DNA from: Bacteroidota bacterium
Lineage (GTDB): Bacteria > Bacteroidota > Ignavibacteria > Ignavibacteriales > Melioribacteraceae
Assembly: GCA_021812705.1 (NCBI GenBank)
Contig: JAKAMT010000003.1
Span: forward strand, 1-50,281
Direction of reading: 5' to 3'
Length of the DNA stretch: 50,281 nt
Numbering within the stretch: position 1 is the first letter of the stretch; the number at the start of each line of letters is the position of its first letter. The position numbers and the translations under genes are program-made. This document shows positions 3,951 through 14,173 of this stretch, piece after piece. The notes beneath the pieces are model-generated. The model was not told the origin of the DNA. It was given only the letters and a program-made list of their open reading frames with translations, and made no database searches.

Positions 3951-4073
3951 TTTTTAAAAGAGAGGAATTATTATTGTTTCGACAAAGCAAAAAATTTTTA
4001 TTATGTTCCAATTGAAATTACACAGAAAAACATTCACAATAAAACACTGTTCTTTTCAAAAGGTGCGGATCAT

Positions 4074-5414
4074 ATGGCAAAAACTAATCCAAAAACTTTT
4101 GTTCTAGACACAAACGTAATTCTTCACGACCCCACTTGCATCAATCACTTTCAGGAAAACAATATAATTATACCGCTCGCAGTGATAGAAGAACTCGATC
4201 ATTTCAAGCGGGGCAATCAGGTAATAAATTTAAATGCGCGGGAATTTGCACGCACATTGGATTCGATTGCAGGGAATGAAGTCTTCAACGGCGGCGTTTC
4301 GCTTGGTAGAGGCAAAGGAAAGGTAAGAATAGTTATTACAAAAGGGCTCTCCCCCGAGATTCACGACGTGTTCAGGGAGGATAATGTAGACCACAGAGTT
4401 TTAAGCGCGGCGGTGGAAGCATCCAGGGAGAATAAAGGAAAGAGCAAGACAATTCTTGTGAGCAAAGATGTTAACCTGCGGATGAAATCGAAAGCAATCG
4501 GAATTCCGGCGGAAGACTACACGACAGACAGAGTCGTGAATGTGGAAGAACTTTACAGCGGCAAATCGGTTGTGGAAGATTTCGACGATGATATCCTTCA
4601 GCGTTTATATCAGCCCCCTTATGAGGTATTATCAAAGCAGATTTTGAAAAAATTGAAGAGCGAAGCTGTTCCGAATAAATATTTCATCATGCGCAACTCC
4701 AACCGTTCTGTTCTTGCCGCACTAAATAACGAGATGGATAAATTCAAACGGATCGACAAGCAGGCAGTTTACGGCATAAAGCCGCGCAACGCGGAACAGA
4801 CTTTTGCTGTAGACGCCCTCTGCAATCCGGATATACCTTTGGTATCGATGACGGGAAAAGCGGGCACCGGAAAAACACTTCTCGCGCTCGCAGGCGCACT
4901 GCAGGTGAGAAAAAATTACCGCCAGATTTATATCGCACGCCCTGTTGTTCCGTTAAGCAATAAAGATCTTGGATTTCTGCCCGGAGATGTTGAGAGCAAA
5001 TTGGCTCCTTACATGCAGCCTTTGTGGGACAATCTAAAAGTAATTCAGGATCAGTTTCCGGAGACGGACAAAAGCCATCAGATGATAAACACAATGCTCA
5101 AAGAAGAAAAGCTAGTTATAGAACCTTTGAGCTACATCAGGGGAAGAAGCCTTCAGCGGATCTATTTTATAGTTGATGAAGCGCAGAATTTAACGCCGCA
5201 TGAAATTAAAACGATCATCACGCGCGCGGGTGAAGGAGCGAAAATAGTTTTAACCGGCGATGTTTATCAGATCGATCACCCCTATCTCGATTCGCAGTCG
5301 AACGGGTTATCTTATCTGATAGAGCATTTCAAGGGACAAAAACTTTATGCGCATGTAAATCTTGAAAAGGGGGAACGCTCGGAATTGGCCGAATTGGCCA
5401 GTAATCTGTTATAA
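4074..5414 (+). CDS. PIN-PhoH family protein (PhoH2/YlaK-like ATPase)
   Basis: A 446-residue protein with two parts. Residues 1 to about 150 form a PIN-like ribonuclease domain with the acidic N-terminal motif FVLDTNVILHDP and further acidic residues (EELDHF). Residues about 235-446 form a PhoH ATPase with Walker A GKAGTGKT at 261-268 and Walker B YFIVDEAQN. Family knowledge: PIN-PhoH proteins couple an RNA helicase-like ATPase to a nuclease and act on RNA in the cytoplasm; the in vivo target is generally unclear. The start has AGGTG upstream. It stands alone, with the methionine leader directly downstream and no obvious functional tie to it. Confidence 0.9.
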   Translation: MAKTNPKTFVLDTNVILHDPTCINHFQENNIIIPLAVIEELDHFKRGNQVINLNAREFARTLDSIAGNEVFNGGVSLGRGKGKVRIVITKGLSPEIHDVFREDNVDHRVLSAAVEASRENKGKSKTILVSKDVNLRMKSKAIGIPAEDYTTDRVVNVEELYSGKSVVEDFDDDILQRLYQPPYEVLSKQILKKLKSEAVPNKYFIMRNSNRSVLAALNNEMDKFKRIDKQAVYGIKPRNAEQTFAVDALCNPDIPLVSMTGKAGTGKTLLALAGALQVRKNYRQIYIARPVVPLSNKDLGFLPGDVESKLAPYMQPLWDNLKVIQDQFPETDKSHQMINTMLKEEKLVIEPLSYIRGRSLQRIYFIVDEAQNLTPHEIKTIITRAGEGAKIVLTGDVYQIDHPYLDSQSNGLSYLIEHFKGQKLYAHVNLEKGERSELAELASNLL

Positions 5415-5434
5415 TATATTTTTTTCGAATCGTG

Positions 5435-5466
5435 CTTGACATGGGAGAATTTTTATTTTAGCTTTG
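5435..5466 (+). promoter_or_regulatory. Bacteroidota-type promoter of the methionine operon
   Basis: CTTG (5435-5438), exactly 20 bases, then TAGCTTTG (5459-5466), a full match to TAnnTTTG with the expected 19-22 base gap. The same stretch also reads as TTGACA, 17 bases, TAGCTT. Transcription would begin near 5473, about 18 bases before the first leader ORF, giving an untranslated leader of roughly 370 bases before metY. Confidence 0.7.
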
Positions 5467-5490
5467 CCGGCAAGTAAAAAGAAAAAAGAA

Positions 5491-5577
5491 ATGAATCTCT
5501 TCAAAATAAATAACGCAGCCCTTGCAACTATGCACACAATGCAGATGGGTATGATGCGGTTTATTCCGAAGGGATAG
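5491..5577 (+). CDS. Methionine-rich leader peptide 1 (attenuator)
   Basis: A 28-codon ORF (ATG 5491, TAG 5575) with five internal Met codons packed into nine codons (residues 14, 17, 19, 21 and 22; segment T-M-H-T-M-Q-M-G-M-M). It ends with R-F-I-P-K-G, and those last codons contain CCGAAGGG (5566-5573). That octamer is the exact complement of CCCTTCGG (5602-5609) in the following terminator. The arrangement is that of a ribosome-mediated attenuator: a ribosome stalled at Met codons leaves CCGAAGGG free to pair with the terminator arm, whereas a ribosome at the stop codon covers it. The start is preceded by a purine run with only a weak Shine-Dalgarno. Its position in the leader of a methionine operon makes Met sensing the natural reading. 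Inferred, not demonstrated. Confidence 0.8.
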   Translation: MNLFKINNAALATMHTMQMGMMRFIPKG

Positions 5578-5597
5578 ATTATATAAATTTTTTAATC

Positions 5598-5630
5598 AAA
5601 GCCCTTCGGAAAATTTCGAAGGGCTTTTTT
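5598..5630 (+). terminator. Attenuator terminator 1
   Basis: An 11-bp stem, AAAGCCCTTCG (5598-5608) with CGAAGGGCTTT (5617-5627), an 8-base loop and a T-run to 5630. It lies 20 bases after the stop of leader peptide 1. The 5' arm can alternatively pair with 5566-5573 inside that ORF, which would prevent termination. Confidence 0.88.
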
Positions 5631-5651
5631 GTTTTAAACTATAGGACAGCA

Positions 5652-5759
5652 ATGAAAAATAATTTTATAAATAGCCGGCAGAATAGTAATAAATCTCTTC
5701 AAACCATGATGATGATGACAATGTGCATGACATACCTCAAGCGGGAAGGGATTTCTTAG
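5652..5759 (+). CDS. Methionine-rich leader peptide 2 (attenuator)
   Basis: A 35-codon ORF (ATG 5652, TAG 5757) with AGGA five bases before the start. Six internal Met codons fall within eight codons (residues 19-22, 24 and 26; segment T-M-M-M-M-T-M-C-M-T). The 3' part of the ORF carries GAAGGG (5745-5750), complementary to CCCTTC (5786-5791) in terminator 2. A small hairpin (5752-5758 with 5764-5770) sits between the two arms, as GATTA/TAATC does in leader 1. It therefore repeats the architecture of leader 1 with a different peptide sequence, implying two attenuators in series. The peptide probably has no function beyond being translated. Confidence 0.8.
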   Translation: MKNNFINSRQNSNKSLQTMMMMTMCMTYLKREGIS

Positions 5760-5783
5760 CGGATAAGAAAAATTCAATCAGAG

Positions 5784-5814
5784 AGCCCTTCACAAAATGA
5801 AGGGCTTTTTTTTT
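5784..5814 (+). terminator. Attenuator terminator 2
   Basis: A 9-bp stem AGCCCTTCA (5784-5792) with TGAAGGGCT (5798-5806), loop CAAAA, followed by a run of nine T (5806-5814). It ends about 20 bases before the metY ribosome binding site (AGGAGA, 5835-5840). RNA polymerase must read through both terminators to reach metY. Confidence 0.88.
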
Positions 5815-5830
5815 ACAATTTTTTTAATAA

Positions 5831-7171
<1,341 letters not shown>

Positions 7172-7181
7172 GGAGGATGAA

Positions 7182-8591
7182 ATGAAAGTTATAAAATTCG
7201 GCGGTTCGTCAATCGGTTCACCTGAAAGGTTTTTGAATGTTTCAAAAATTATTATTTCAAAAATTAAAACCGATTACTCAATTGTTGTTTTGTCGGCCAT
7301 AGGCGGCATTACAGACAAACTTTTGGATGCGATTGAATTGGCAAGCGGCGGCGATCCAAAATATGTCGATGCGTTCGAAGAAATCAAAACCGTTCACAAT
7401 AATTTTGTTTCGGAAATAATTCCCCCGCAATTTCAGCAGGAAGCCAAAAACAAAATAGAATCTCTGTTAAAAAGATTGCACGAAAAACTGAACGGCGTGT
7501 ATCTGCTTAATGAATGTTCAAGCCGCATAAGCGATTCAATCGTCACTTACGGCGAATATCTTTCAAATAATCTAATGGTTTATCTATTGAGATCGGAAGG
7601 AGTGAATTGCGACTTCAGCGATGCGCGCAATCTAATAAGAACAGATTCAGACTACGGAGATGCGCATGTTAAATTCACGGTCACAAACGAGCTTCTTCAG
7701 AAATGGTACCATTCATTGGACAAAAATACAATTCCCATTGTAAACGGATTTATCGGATCAGATGCTCACGGCCACATTACAACTTTGGGCAGAAGCGGTT
7801 CGGATTTTACGGCTACAATAATCGGCGGTGCGCTCGAAGCTGATCTGGTTGAGATATGGACCGATGTGGACGGAGTGATGACAGTTGACCCGAGAATTGT
7901 GCCGGCGGCAGTAACACTTAACGAACTTAATTATAACGAGGCGTCGAGTCTTGCGGTGCTTGGCGGAAAAGTGATTCACCCGAAAACGATTTCTCCGGTT
8001 GAAAGACACAATGTTCCGGTGAACATTCGGAATACATTCCGTCCCGAAATCGACGGCACATTCATAGGTTCAACAAAGATTGAATCGGAAGCGGGAATAA
8101 AAACTATAACATACCTTAACGGTCTTTCGTCGATTACAATTTATGAATCGGAATCCAGATACGGACACAAAATTCTTGCGCGGTTGTTCGGTTTACTTTC
8201 GCGGCTCGATATTCCGATTATTACAATCAGCAAATCCGCATACAACCAGACAATCTGCCTGATCGTTAAAAATAAATATGAAGAGCTCGTTCTTGAAAAT
8301 ATAAAACTGGAACTCGTGCTCGAAATCGAGAAAGGTATTATAGGCGAGATTGTTTCTAAAAAAAATCTCTCCATCGTTTCCGCTATCGGCGTTAATGAAA
8401 ATAATATTTCTCATGTATCGAGAAAAATTTACGATGTGCTTGAGAACAGCGGAATAAAAGAGATTAATTTTTTGAATGATCCCGCTTCACTGAACATTTC
8501 GTTTGTGGTCGAAGAGAATGAAGTGAATAAAACAATCGCAGACCTGCACGAAGAATTTTTCACCAAATCCGAATCTGTTAATGTAGCATAA
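7182..8591 (+). CDS. lysC: Aspartate kinase (monofunctional)
   Basis: Phosphorylates aspartate, the first step toward methionine, threonine and lysine. The N-terminal amino-acid kinase motif [13 protein letters not shown] is at residues 4-16, and the substrate segment [16 protein letters not shown] lies near residue 205. The C-terminal third (about 310-465) has the composition of two ACT domains, which usually confer feedback inhibition. At 469 residues it has no room for a fused homoserine dehydrogenase. It starts 10 bases after metY with GAGGAGG upstream and is probably co-transcribed. Being within a methionine-controlled operon suggests an isozyme serving methionine supply; the effector (Met, Lys, Thr) cannot be read from sequence. 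Confidence 0.93.
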
Positions 8592-8611
8592 TTCCCAAGG
8601 AGAGGATTAAA

Positions 8612-9730
8612 ATGAATGAACTGGATGAATCCGACACAACAAACACAATAGAGTTCAAGGAGAGATTTTTTCTTGAGTCGGGAAAATCTCTCCCCTCGGT
8701 TACGGTTGCGTATGAAACTTACGGCCGGCTCAATACCGAAGGAACAAATGCAATTTTGATTTGCCACGCACTCACCGGTGATTCTCATGCATCATCGCTA
8801 AACAATCCGGTGAACGGCAGACCGGCTCAAAAAGGATGGTGGGAAGGGCTTATTGGAAAAAATAAAGCATTCGATCCGGAAGAATATTTTATAGTGTGCT
8901 CTAATGTTCTAGGCGGATGCTACGGAACAAGCGGACCTACCTCAATAGATCCTTCAACAGAAAAAAAATACGGAATAAACTTTCCCGAAATCACCGTCCG
9001 GGACATGGTAAACCTTCAATACAAACTTTTGCAAAAACTTGGTGTTACAAAGTTAGCCGCTGTTTCCGGCGGCTCACTCGGAGGGATGCAGGCGCTTGAG
9101 TGGGCGGTTATTTATCCCGAATTTGTCGAAAAAATAATTCCCATCGCAACGGCCGCGCGGCATTCTGCATGGTGCATCGGACTCAACAGTGCCGCACGCA
9201 AAGCCATAACGGACGATAAAGACTGGAACAACGGGTGCTATGTTGAACAGCCGCGCAACGGTTTGGCTACTGCAAGAATGATAGCAATGATTTCATACAG
9301 AAGTCCAGAAAGTTTCTCAAAAAGATTCGGACGCGAAATTTCAAATCCATCGGAAAATTCTTCCGGCCGGTTTCAGGTTGAGAGCTATCTCCGCTATCAG
9401 GGAGAAAAATTGGTGAAGCGCTTCGATGCAAACACCTATTTATACATGACGAACGCAAGCGACACACATGACCTTGGCAGAGAGAGAGGGAATCTTCATG
9501 ATGTCTTGAGCAATATAAGAGCAAAAACTTTGTGCATCGGCATCAGTTCTGATATTCTTTATCCGGCGTCGGAGCAGAAAGAGATTGCCGCATCAATACC
9601 CGGCTCGTCCTATTTCGAAATAGATTCCATACACGGCCATGATGCATTTTTGATAGAGTTCGATCAGATGAATCCGGTTATTAAAAATTTCTTAAATGTA
9701 AAAGAAGGAGTAGAATATGAAAAAGTATAA
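8612..9730 (+). CDS. metX: Homoserine O-acetyltransferase
   Basis: Alpha/beta hydrolase-fold enzyme that acetylates homoserine with acetyl-CoA to give the MetY substrate. The nucleophile elbow is [13 protein letters not shown] with Ser155; the acid is probably the Asp in [13 protein letters not shown] and the base the His in [21 protein letters not shown] (51-60) and the [11 protein letters not shown] segment are also characteristic. At 372 residues it is standard length. AAGGAGAGG precedes the ATG. The 3' end overlaps asd by 14 bases, indicating translational coupling. A homoserine succinyl- rather than acetyl-transferase of this fold is possible in principle, but the pairing with MetY favours acetylation. 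Confidence 0.94.
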
Positions 9731-10709
9731 TGTGCTTATAGCAGGCGCAACCGGTTTGGTAGGGAAAACCATTTTAAAAGTTCTTGAAGAAAGAAAATTT
9801 CCAGTTAATAAAATCCTGCTCTGCGCTTCAAACCGTATAGACGAAAGGTACCTTCGTTTTAAAGAAGAGAACATTCAAGTTCAGGCTTTAGACGAAATTG
9901 ATTTCAACGAAATAGATTTTTCTTTTTTCGCCACAGAAAAAGAGATTTCGCTTAGATATGTCCCCAAAGCGCTGGCAGCCGGAAATTATGTGATAGACAA
10001 CAGCAGCGCATACAGAATGGATCCCGCTGTACCGCTTGTAATTCCTGAGGCAAACGGAGATCTGATTCAGAAAAATAATTTTATCTATGCAAACCCGAAC
10101 TGTTCAACAGCGCAGCTTGCAGCGGCAGTAAATCCGCTCCATTTGAAATTCGGACTGGAAAGAATAACTGTAACCACTTTGCAGGCGGTTTCGGGAAGCG
10201 GATTGAGAGGATTGGCGCAGCTAAAATCAGAAAGAGAATTTCACCAGCCGGTCGATCCGGTATATCCTCACCGGATTTACAACAACTGTATTCCTCAGAT
10301 AGGCGTCTTTGACGGAAATGGAAATTGCGAAGAAGAATTGAAAATAATTTCAGAAATAAAAAAAATTCTTAGGCTGGAGAATCTGATCGTTGCCGTTACA
10401 ACTGTGAGAGTTCCGGTTGAAAATGGCCATAGCGAATCAGTACTTGTGGAATTCAAAAATCCGGTTGATGAAAATTCCGCACGGCAAATTCTTGCCGCGA
10501 GCGATAACATCATTCTGCAAGATTTTCCGAATGAATCCATCTACCCCATTGCGCTGAATTCATCCGGACACGATGAAGTTTATGTAGGCAGAATAAGAAA
10601 GGTGAACGGCCTTCCAAACGCTCTTCAATTCTGGGTTGTGGCAGATAATCTGCGCAAAGGCGCCGCCTCGAACGCAATACAAATTGCCGAGCAGATAATA
10701 AAATTGTAA
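9717..10709 (+). CDS. asd: Aspartate-semialdehyde dehydrogenase
   Basis: Reduces aspartyl phosphate to aspartate semialdehyde with NADPH. The N-terminal Rossmann motif is [17 protein letters not shown]; catalytic Cys129 lies in NPNCSTAQL; substrate-binding segments [14 protein letters not shown] and the histidine of [13 protein letters not shown] follow. The 330-residue length is typical. The ATG overlaps the end of metX, with AAGGAG upstream inside metX. Last gene of the methionine operon: with lysC it provides the two steps from aspartate to the semialdehyde, while the homoserine dehydrogenase step is missing here and must be encoded elsewhere. Confidence 0.94.
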
Positions 10710-10850: not shown

Positions 10851-12761
10851 ATGAAAGAATTCTCTTTTAAGCCGTTCGAAGAAATGACGGAAAAAGATTA
10901 CGAGACTGTCGGATTCAAATCGGGTCTGGAAATTCATCAGCAGCTTTTAACATCAAAAAAACTTTTTTGCAGATGCCCTTCCGCAAAATACAGCGAGCAC
11001 TATGATGCCGAGATATTGCGCCACATGCGCCCCACATTATCGGAACTTGGCGAATATGACGGCACCGCGCTGATGGAATTTAAAACGAAGAAAGATATCC
11101 TTTACAGAATAAACAGAGAGAGCGTGTGCACTTATGAAATGGACGACACCCCTCCGTTTCTAATCAACAATGAGGCGCTCGATATTGCGCTGGAATGCGG
11201 GCTTCTCTTCGATTGCGCAGTTGTTGACGAGCTTCATATTGCGCGCAAACAATATCTGGACGGATCTATTCCTACCGGATTTCAGCGGACAGCAATTTTT
11301 GCACTCGACGGAAAAATTCCATACAAGAACAGAATAATAGATATTGTGCAGATGTCTATAGAAGAAGATTCATGCAGAGAAGTTTCAGACACGGGACATC
11401 TGCGCGTTTACAGAACAGACCGTTTGGGGATGCCGCTGATTGAAACCGTTACCGGTCCATGTATGCGCACTCCATTTGAAGTTGCCGAAGTCGCGGAGAT
11501 CTGCGCGAATATTGTCAGAAGCACAAATAAAGTAAGACGCGGAATCGGAACGGCTCGCGAAGATGTAAATGTAAGCGTGGAAGGGGGAACAAGAATTGAG
11601 ATCAAAGGCGTTCCGAAAATAGGAAGAATTCCTCTCCTCACTTACAACGAAGCCATGCGCCAGTGGAATCTTTTGCGCCTCCGGGAAGAACTTAACAAAA
11701 GAGGAATTACAAAAGATACATTTGACGCGAAATGGGAAAACATAACCCGCATTGTAAAAAAATCTCACTACCAGCCGATTAGAAATGCGATAGATCAGGG
11801 TCTCATTGTAAAATGTGTTCTTCTTAAAGGATACTCAGGGCTGCTCCGCTGGCAAACGCAAACGGATACCTACTTTTCAAAAGAGATTTCGGACCGCGTG
11901 CGCGTAATTGCATGCCTCACTACTATTCCGAACATTCTTCATTCCGACAGTAAAGGAGATACTCTAACATCCGCGGAATGGCTTAACATTAAAAAATTCG
12001 TTGGCGCTTCCGGTACAGATACAATGGTTTTAGTCTGGGGAAACGAACCCGATACGGAAACCGCTGTAAAAGAAATTATTATTAGAGCCAAAGAAGCAAC
12101 TATCGGCGTTCCTTCTGAGACAAGGCAGGCGCTGCGCGACGGTACAAACGGATTTGAAAGAATTCTACCCGGTGCAGACAGAATGTATCCCGACACCGAT
12201 TTGCCGCCGACAAAAATTACCCATGAGCGTCTTGATGAAATTAGACAGCACATTCCGGACAAATTCTGGGAAAGAGAAAAATGGTATGGTGAATTAAAAA
12301 TTCCGGCCGATACAATCAGAGAATTATCCATTTCAAAATTTGCTAAACTATTCAAAACGCTAGTGCTCGAATGGAATATTAATCCTACTACCGCGGCAGT
12401 ATCCCTTATTCAATTTCCTAAAAGACTGAAAAAGAAAAAATTGGATACATCTGCTCTTAATGAAGAAATCATGAAAGAAATATTCCGCGCTTTTAAGGAT
12501 AATATGATTTCACAAAGCGGAATTCTTTGGGCGATGAAAAATTTTATACTGAAAGGAAAATTATTCTTCGGAACAACTTCGCAGATATTTAGCGGAAAAG
12601 AACTCGATGAAATTGTACTGCTTGCCGGTAAGGAAATTGAGGCGACAAATATCCGCCGCCCTGAAAAGAAGGAGGAGATTCTGATTGGCGCGGTTATGAA
12701 TAAATACAGAATGAAAATCGACGGAAAACATCTTGCACAAAAATTATCGCAAGTAAAGTAA
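10851..12761 (+). CDS. gatE: Glu-tRNA(Gln) amidotransferase subunit E (archaeal type)
   Basis: GatE kinase/tRNA-binding subunit: it phosphorylates Glu on mischarged Glu-tRNA(Gln) and, with ammonia delivered by GatD, converts it to Gln-tRNA(Gln). The 636-residue length matches archaeal GatE rather than GatB (about 480). The catalytic cradle starts with GLEIHQQLLTSKKLFCRCPS (25-44), followed by RQYLDGSIPTGFQRT-like and EDSCRE segments and RGIGTAREDVNVS. An AspRS-like insertion follows (about 290-420, containing FERILPGADRMYPDTDLPP nearby), then a YqeY-like tail to the C-terminus. gatD follows 26 bases downstream, so the whole enzyme is encoded. GatDE is generally described as archaea-specific, so its presence here points to lateral acquisition. 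The start has a weak GGAA upstream. Confidence 0.92.
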   Translation: MKEFSFKPFEEMTEKDYETVGFKSGLEIHQQLLTSKKLFCRCPSAKYSEHYDAEILRHMRPTLSELGEYDGTALMEFKTKKDILYRINRESVCTYEMDDTPPFLINNEALDIALECGLLFDCAVVDELHIARKQYLDGSIPTGFQRTAIFALDGKIPYKNRIIDIVQMSIEEDSCREVSDTGHLRVYRTDRLGMPLIETVTGPCMRTPFEVAEVAEICANIVRSTNKVRRGIGTAREDVNVSVEGGTRIEIKGVPKIGRIPLLTYNEAMRQWNLLRLREELNKRGITKDTFDAKWENITRIVKKSHYQPIRNAIDQGLIVKCVLLKGYSGLLRWQTQTDTYFSKEISDRVRVIACLTTIPNILHSDSKGDTLTSAEWLNIKKFVGASGTDTMVLVWGNEPDTETAVKEIIIRAKEATIGVPSETRQALRDGTNGFERILPGADRMYPDTDLPPTKITHERLDEIRQHIPDKFWEREKWYGELKIPADTIRELSISKFAKLFKTLVLEWNINPTTAAVSLIQFPKRLKKKKLDTSALNEEIMKEIFRAFKDNMISQSGILWAMKNFILKGKLFFGTTSQIFSGKELDEIVLLAGKEIEATNIRRPEKKEEILIGAVMNKYRMKIDGKHLAQKLSQVK

Positions 12762-12787
12762 ACCTGGAAAAGTGAGAGTTAAGATTA

Positions 12788-14173
12788 ATGGCAGATGATA
12801 ATTACAAAGGATACCGGGGCGAAGCGCTTTCGGTTTTAAAAAATTTTAACGCGCTGGTATGGAGCGACGTTGAGATAACAACTACTAAAGGAAAGTATAA
12901 AGGAATAATTCTTCCGCGGTCAGAAACCGCAGATCAGTTTCATATCGTGATTAAAATGCCTATCGGCTACAACATAGGCGTGGCTGCAAATCTTGTGACC
13001 GACATCCAAATCCGCGGAAGAAAAGAAGCGCACTATAAAATTCCCGAAAAAGATTTTCCGCGCGATCCCGGCAAACCGAACGTAAAACTCCTTGGTACCG
13101 GCGGAACGATTGCAAGCCGGCTCGATTACAGAACCGGCGCGGTCATTCCAGCATTTTCGCCGGGCGAACTTTACGGCTCCGTTCCAGAATTGGCCAACTA
13201 CTGCAATCTTGATACTGAAAAACTTTACGGCGTATTCAGCGAGAATATGGGTCCGGAACAATGGATCGGAACCGCACAGGCTATCGGAAGAGAAATTCAA
13301 AAAGGCGTGGATGGAATTGTAATTGGTCACGGCACGGATACTATGCACCACACCGCCGCAATACTCTCTTTTATGGTTCAAAATTCCCCGATACCGATTG
13401 TAATGGTCGGCTCGCAGAGATCAAGCGACCGCCCTTCATCAGACGCCGCGCTTAATTTAATGCACAGCGTTAAGACTGCGGCCGAAAGCGACATAGCAGA
13501 AGTGATGGTTTGTATGTTCGGTCCCACTTCCGATTATTACGGACTTCTTCACAGAGGAACCCGCGTAAGAAAAATGCATTCCAGCTACAGATCCACATTC
13601 AGAACGATAGGAGAAATTCCGATCGCAAAAGTAAGCCGCGATGCAATCACCCCTCTTCGAAGCGATTATAAAAGAAGACGGAAAGACAGAGATGTAACAA
13701 TAAATACTGCATTCGAAGAGAAGGTAAGCATCGTTTATTATTATCCCAACATGAAGCCGGATATAATTGAATCGCTTATAGATAATGATTATAAAGGGAT
13801 TGTAATTGCGGGAACCGGATTAGGCCATGTGAACAAACCTTTATATCCCGCGCTGAAGCGCGCGCACGAAAAAGGAATTTCAATTTATATGACAGTGCAG
13901 ACTCTTTGGGGCTATGTTCAGATGTATGTTTACGATACCGGCCGTGACATGATGGAACTCGGCGTTATACCCGGAGAAAACATGCTGCCGGAAGCGGCTT
14001 ATATGAAACTGTGCTGGGCGCTGGGCCAAACAAATGATCAGAAAAAAGTAAAAGAGATTATGCTTACTCCGGTAGCCGGAGAAATTACAGAGCGTGAACC
14101 GAGCAACGGATATTTAATTTATCAGGGCGGGCTTCCCGAAGTGGAAGAATTTATTTCCAAATACATTAAATAA
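12788..14173 (+). CDS. gatD: Glu-tRNA(Gln) amidotransferase subunit D (archaeal type)
   Basis: GatD glutaminase/asparaginase-fold subunit that releases ammonia for GatE. The N-terminal ~95 residues form the GatD-specific small beta domain (VWSDVEITTTKGKYKGIILP), absent from ordinary L-asparaginases. Catalytic residues are visible: Thr107 in GTGGTIAS, Thr183 and Asp184 in HGTDTMHHTA, and Lys262 in RKMHSS, at offsets expected from archaeal GatD. At 461 residues it is full length. Genes are adjacent in the order gatE-gatD with a short gap. A heptameric repeat array begins right at its stop codon. An L-asparaginase annotation would be wrong given the extra domain and the gatE partner. Confidence 0.93.
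   Translation: MADDNYKGYRGEALSVLKNFNALVWSDVEITTTKGKYKGIILPRSETADQFHIVIKMPIGYNIGVAANLVTDIQIRGRKEAHYKIPEKDFPRDPGKPNVKLLGTGGTIASRLDYRTGAVIPAFSPGELYGSVPELANYCNLDTEKLYGVFSENMGPEQWIGTAQAIGREIQKGVDGIVIGHGTDTMHHTAAILSFMVQNSPIPIVMVGSQRSSDRPSSDAALNLMHSVKTAAESDIAEVMVCMFGPTSDYYGLLHRGTRVRKMHSSYRSTFRTIGEIPIAKVSRDAITPLRSDYKRRRKDRDVTINTAFEEKVSIVYYYPNMKPDIIESLIDNDYKGIVIAGTGLGHVNKPLYPALKRAHEKGISIYMTVQTLWGYVQMYVYDTGRDMMELGVIPGENMLPEAAYMKLCWALGQTNDQKKVKEIMLTPVAGEITEREPSNGYLIYQGGLPEVEEFISKYIK

Follow-up and report, generated by a model that had tools for sequence, protein, structure and literature searches.

Amidotransferases of the GatDE family, which to our knowledge textbooks confine to archaea, are encoded in bacterial genomes of at least seven phyla, usually beside a canonical GlnRS and a bacterial-type tRNA(Gln), and this distribution contradicts archaeal exclusivity. 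One such pair is found in the window, the whole stretch of 50,281 nucleotides analyzed here. Family membership of the pair is secure, and the bacterial clade to which it belongs, like its GlnRS-bearing context, appears to be undescribed. We propose, with a probability of roughly one half, that members of the bacterial GatDE subfamily recognize tRNA in an altered way and convert mischarged Glu-tRNA(Gln) by amidation, either to correct errors or as a backup. The pair comprises the following features.

10851..12761, + strand: gatE, 636 aa, intact ORF; amidotransferase subunit with a GatB/GatE catalytic (kinase) domain
Within gatE, residues ~310-400, + strand: degenerate GAD domain; the subunit also has helical and tail (YqeY-like) domains
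12531..12758, + strand: GatE tail domain, residues 561-636; counterpart of the tRNA-binding tail of archaeal GatE; highly variable among bacteria
12788..14173, + strand: gatD, 461 aa, intact ORF; asparaginase-like subunit
14096..14170, + strand: GatD C-terminal extension, residues 437-461, EPSNGYLIYQGGLPEVEEFISKYIK; common to bacterial GatDs

An intact GatDE pair on a bacterial contig

The two genes lie on the same strand, 26 bp apart. GatE exceeds the cut-offs of two NCBIfam models (NF003107, 532.6 bits, cut-off 456; TIGR00134, 466 bits, cut-off 319.6) and reaches only 115–129 bits on the NCBIfam GatB models, whose cut-offs are 315–338; judged by this equivalog-level match, it is a genuine GatDE subunit. 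Its Pfam match is GatB_N. The GAD domain (15.4 bits, cut-off 23.4) and the YqeY-like domain (23.4 bits, cut-off 27) score below threshold, and both regions align to the archaeal structure 1zq1 and are folded in the model. GatD matches TIGR02153 (515.6 bits, cut-off 324) and NF003217 (514 bits, cut-off 310) and contains the Pfam domains GatD_N and Asparaginase N and C. The best solved-structure relatives of both subunits, aligned over their full length, are the archaeal GatDE enzymes of Pyrococcus abyssi (1zq1) and Methanothermobacter thermautotrophicus (2d6f), with identities of 35–37% for GatE and 45–46% for GatD. The chains of these enzymes are also the top structural matches of the predicted folds (1zq1_C and 2d6f_C for GatE, mean pLDDT 90; 2d6f_A and 1zq1_A for GatD, mean pLDDT 83). 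GatD residues T107, T183, D184, and K262 align with the catalytic residues Thr101, Thr177, Asp178, and Lys254 of the Methanothermobacter subunit and are invariant across 43 aligned GatDs. The initial annotation, made from the sequence, had described both subunits as full length, adjacent, and catalytically intact, and in this it was correct.

Full-length subunits, folds, and catalytic residues are thus shared with archaeal GatDE, from which the bacterial pair differs in its reversed gene order, its GatD C-terminal extension, its variable tail, and its degenerate GAD domain. The extension, of about 24 residues, is unaligned in archaeal GatDs, whose matches end near profile position 437. Bacterial GatCAB is a second relative, given that GatB has the catalytic and YqeY-like domains of GatE; in the window pair, however, an asparaginase-type GatD takes the place of the amidase GatA, GatE falls below the GatB equivalog cut-offs, and the GatB of this genome is a separate gene on another contig (C251). 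Type I L-asparaginases share the asparaginase core of GatD at about 30% identity, whereas GatD also has GatD_N and its own equivalog match, and in a survey of the class gatD adjoins gatE at every locus with enough sequence.

The contig is bacterial, in agreement with the initial annotation, which had judged the surroundings to be so. Genes for a PhoH-like protein, O-acetylhomoserine sulfhydrylase, aspartate kinase, MetX, and Asd lie upstream of gatE and ada lies downstream of gatD, and gatE and gatD do not differ from the neighboring genes in G+C content. GatE is over the cut-off in 30 of 395 genomes of the phylum, all 30 in the window's own class. Since three single-contig relatives (G132, G124, and G294) carry the same gatE–gatD pair, the window locus is not chimeric, and the archaeal or chimeric contig that the initial annotation had allowed for can be set aside. 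Contamination was likewise considered and is ruled out by the closed genomes together with the class-wide presence of the pair. A viral-contig scan gave no match. The met genes of the window are an incidental feature, since phoH immediately precedes gatE in the closest relatives; no neighbor is conserved across loci other than the gatE–gatD pair itself. Compared with the nearest relatives (loci L036, L038, L039, and L041), the window (region 4074–10709) has a metY-lysC-metX-asd block separating the PhoH2-like gene from gatE, as if inserted.

Distribution and phylogeny of bacterial GatDE

The distribution scan used one genome per species and a balanced archaeal/bacterial consensus query, and the best 80 of 568 confirmed matches were taken. 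Among these best 80, bacterial GatEs are found in the Ignavibacteria, Kapabacteria, Aminicenantes, Phycisphaerae and other Planctomycetota, Cloacimonetes (Cloacimonadota), Krumholzibacteriota, Fermentibacteria (Fermentibacterota), and Aegiribacteria, and the nearest named relatives among the matches listed are Ignavibacteriales and Melioribacteraceae MAGs. In the tree of the best 80 of 568 matches, one branch splits 46 bacterial from 34 archaeal rows, the two clades being about 1.4 changes per site apart. When the tree is rooted with GatB, bacteria and archaea form reciprocal clades (support 99% and 98%). Judging from these trees, with or without the GatB root, the bacterial GatEs from at least seven phyla are one old clade facing a single archaeal clade. 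The window GatE falls outside the archaeal clade, and its host has GlnRS; the GatD tree is ambiguous, recovering one bacterial clade with the asparaginase root placed weakly inside the archaea on long branches. Where archaeal pairs are adjacent the order is gatD–gatE, whereas the bacterial order is gatE–gatD. The deep-branching Planctomycetota genome B129_G9 (L065) has gatD and gatE in divergent orientation, unlike all other bacterial loci seen.

Lateral transfer and a different route to Gln-tRNA(Gln) had been suggested initially; read as a simple recent import from archaea, this would make GatDE the bacterium's own source of Gln-tRNA(Gln). The patchy presence of GatE in the class (29 of 109 genomes) is consistent with such a gain, as is the asparaginase-rooted GatD tree, which nests the bacteria, if weakly and on long branches, in the archaea. 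With a GluRS tree as the species proxy, GatE changes about eight times (at least 6) and GlnRS about twice. The reciprocal GatE clades, on a long branch from all sampled archaea, argue against it, however, as do the G+C content shared with neighboring genes and the gene order opposite to that of archaea, and with GlnRS present in the window genome and in most carriers a recent gain is quite improbable.

It is also possible that GatDE predates the split of bacteria and archaea and was lost in most bacteria. The reciprocal domains in the GatB-rooted tree and the proposal, reported in PMC9499178, that LUCA had GatDE would both fit. The bacterial phyla are scattered, however, the outgroup branch is long, and the GatD tree disagrees. 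In addition, the Aminicenantes GatEs are nested within the Ignavibacteria group, which indicates transfer between bacterial phyla; exchange of GatDE among these phyla is therefore likely, as far as the tree can tell, and purely ancient inheritance is very doubtful.

On the archaeal side, plasmid CP031304.1 of the haloarchaeon Natrinema thermotolerans (L035, positions ~4001-5900) carries an unannotated GatE-like stretch that matches in two frames and looks like a broken extra copy.

Coexistence with GlnRS and the fate of GatB

The window genome also encodes a full-length GlnRS, one bacterial GluRS, AsnRS, and GatB, so GatDE does not replace direct glutamine charging as its route to Gln-tRNA(Gln). 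Of the interpretation first given to this locus, a genuine GatDE in a bacterial genome is supported; a simple recent import, and GatDE as the route by which this cell makes Gln-tRNA(Gln), are not supported. Within the class, GlnRS is found in 27 of 29 GatE carriers and in 30 of 80 genomes without GatE (109 genomes), and in 14 of 16 further carriers, including three single-contig genomes, for a total of 41 of 45 carriers; among 20 named carriers, mostly from other phyla, 15 have it. The raw association of GatDE with GlnRS (p=1.5e-7; near-complete genomes, 3.9e-7) is unsupported once kinship is considered, since the proxy tree requires only about two changes of GlnRS. The safe statement is that bacterial GatDE usually coexists with GlnRS and does not replace it. 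We considered whether this GlnRS might be a disguised Glu-charging enzyme feeding GatDE; this is ruled out, the amino-acid and tRNA specificity positions checked being those of the E. coli enzyme in 21 carriers and 14 non-carriers. G287 and G314 (loci L008 and L007), which are small, near-complete genomes from the class, have GatDE and GatB and are without GlnRS, so GatDE may serve there as a main Gln-tRNA route, in keeping with the recent-gain reading.

GatB was detected in only 7 of the 20 named carriers, and about 10 of the 20 have GlnRS and GatDE with GatB undetectable, the GatB signal being an indirect one (the YqeY-domain part of a fusion model) in both counts. In the class, GatB is undetectable in 5 of 24 near-complete carriers vs 1 of 65 non-carriers (Fisher p=0.005, uncorrected for kinship). 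Bacterial GatDE may have taken over another acyl-tRNA, for example in the amidation of Asp-tRNA(Asn), freeing GatCAB for loss, and a tRNA-reading tail released from constraint (see below) would be in keeping with this. On the other hand, loss of GatB with GatDE within GlnRS-containing genomes only gives p=0.097, AsnRS and a bacterial-length AspRS are present in 12 of 12 genomes tested (carriers or controls, GatB-less carriers included), and the archaeal enzyme reportedly acts on Glu-tRNA(Gln) specifically (PMC9499178). We consider such a takeover unlikely.

Among near-complete GlnRS-containing genomes of the class, only 1 of 47 is without both GatB and GatDE, as if some amidotransferase were needed even beside GlnRS. 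This raises the question of why cells with GlnRS and AsnRS retain any amidotransferase. The near-complete genome G009, from the window's family, has GlnRS and lacks both GatB and GatE. In the closed genome G456, of which 83% was read, GatDE, GlnRS, GluRS, AspRS, and LysRS are present, and AsnRS and asparagine synthetase B were not found in that 83%.

The absence of PF02938 from the window's own genome is explained by an AspRS missing from an incomplete bin and by the degenerate GAD domain of GatE; relatives carry AspRS of bacterial length. Nearly every GluRS of the class, whether or not GlnRS accompanies it, contains the equivalent of Arg358, as does Borrelia GluRS, and this residue does not tell the GluRS type. 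Genomes of family f56 have an extra GluRS match. The copy in G436 (L164), a genome that also carries GlnRS and GatDE, is without the usual Arg358 motif in the anticodon-reading helix and might be a GluRS that charges tRNA(Gln).

Constraint, tRNA recognition, and proposed function

Constraint was compared as mean pairwise identity, bacteria vs archaea, at loci with both genes. The GatD core is 82.5% identical in bacteria vs 56% in archaea, and the GatE catalytic cradle 72% vs 60%. The GAD region is similar (52% vs 53%), the helical domain somewhat lower (36% vs 40%), and the tail reaches 22% vs 38%, a gap that misalignment of the tail may exaggerate. Both genes are under purifying selection, with dN far below dS and synonymous change near saturation; in the C-terminal part of GatE, dN is about 3 times that of residues 1-450 and still below dS. 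From the domain-wise identities and dN, the catalytic machine has been kept tightly while the counterpart of the archaeal tRNA-reading region has drifted.

This reversal of the constraint pattern, together with the new conserved GatD C-terminus, would also be expected had the complex left translation to amidate a non-tRNA or special-tRNA substrate. We find this doubtful: conservation of the GatE catalytic cradle exceeds that seen in archaea, the model still shows folded helical and tail domains, and no metabolic neighbor is conserved.

G73 is an identity element for GlnRS. The genome's own tRNA(Gln) has this base and a U1-A72 pair, and the inspection of identity elements proposed at the outset thus returned a bacterial-type tRNA. 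Archaeal GatDE, in contrast, is reported to use the D-loop and A1-U72 of tRNA(Gln) (PMC9499178).

With a canonical GlnRS in the host, a correction or backup role is the most likely one, and the reaction, its tRNA substrate, and the corrective role are inferred as follows. GatD would hydrolyze glutamine (or asparagine) and hand ammonia to GatE, which with ATP would activate the gamma-carboxyl of the Glu on mischarged Glu-tRNA(Gln) to yield Gln-tRNA(Gln). The activity would remove Glu-tRNA(Gln) made in error by GluRS, and such a correcting function would be needed if GluRS sometimes charges tRNA(Gln). The catalytic part of GatE would read a bacterial-type tRNA(Gln) with U1-A72, its tail lacking the conserved contacts of archaeal GatE. 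Redundancy where GatB is also present counts against this role, and the low conservation of the tail also fits a different tRNA or a non-tRNA substrate. In broader terms, there may be a little under an even chance that the main task is something other than bulk Gln-tRNA(Gln) synthesis, either conversion-type proofreading alongside GlnRS or action on a new acyl-tRNA, and that the complex can stand in for GatCAB.

According to a 2022 paper, GatDE is now found only in archaea, which lack GlnRS, and coevolution of GatDE with archaeal tRNA(Gln) has been invoked to explain that lack (PMC9499178). Bacterial carriers, in which the two coexist, offer natural systems for testing GatDE–GlnRS incompatibility directly. 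A literature search covering sources other than subscription journals returned no paper on bacterial GatDE; the NCBI models would name such proteins GatD and GatE automatically. In the closed-genome carrier CP054675.1 (L244-L343), the two tRNA-Gln genes (959283-959354 and 1357413-1357486) both encode U1-A72, with apparently A73 in tRNA-Gln(UUG) and G73 in tRNA-Gln(CUG).
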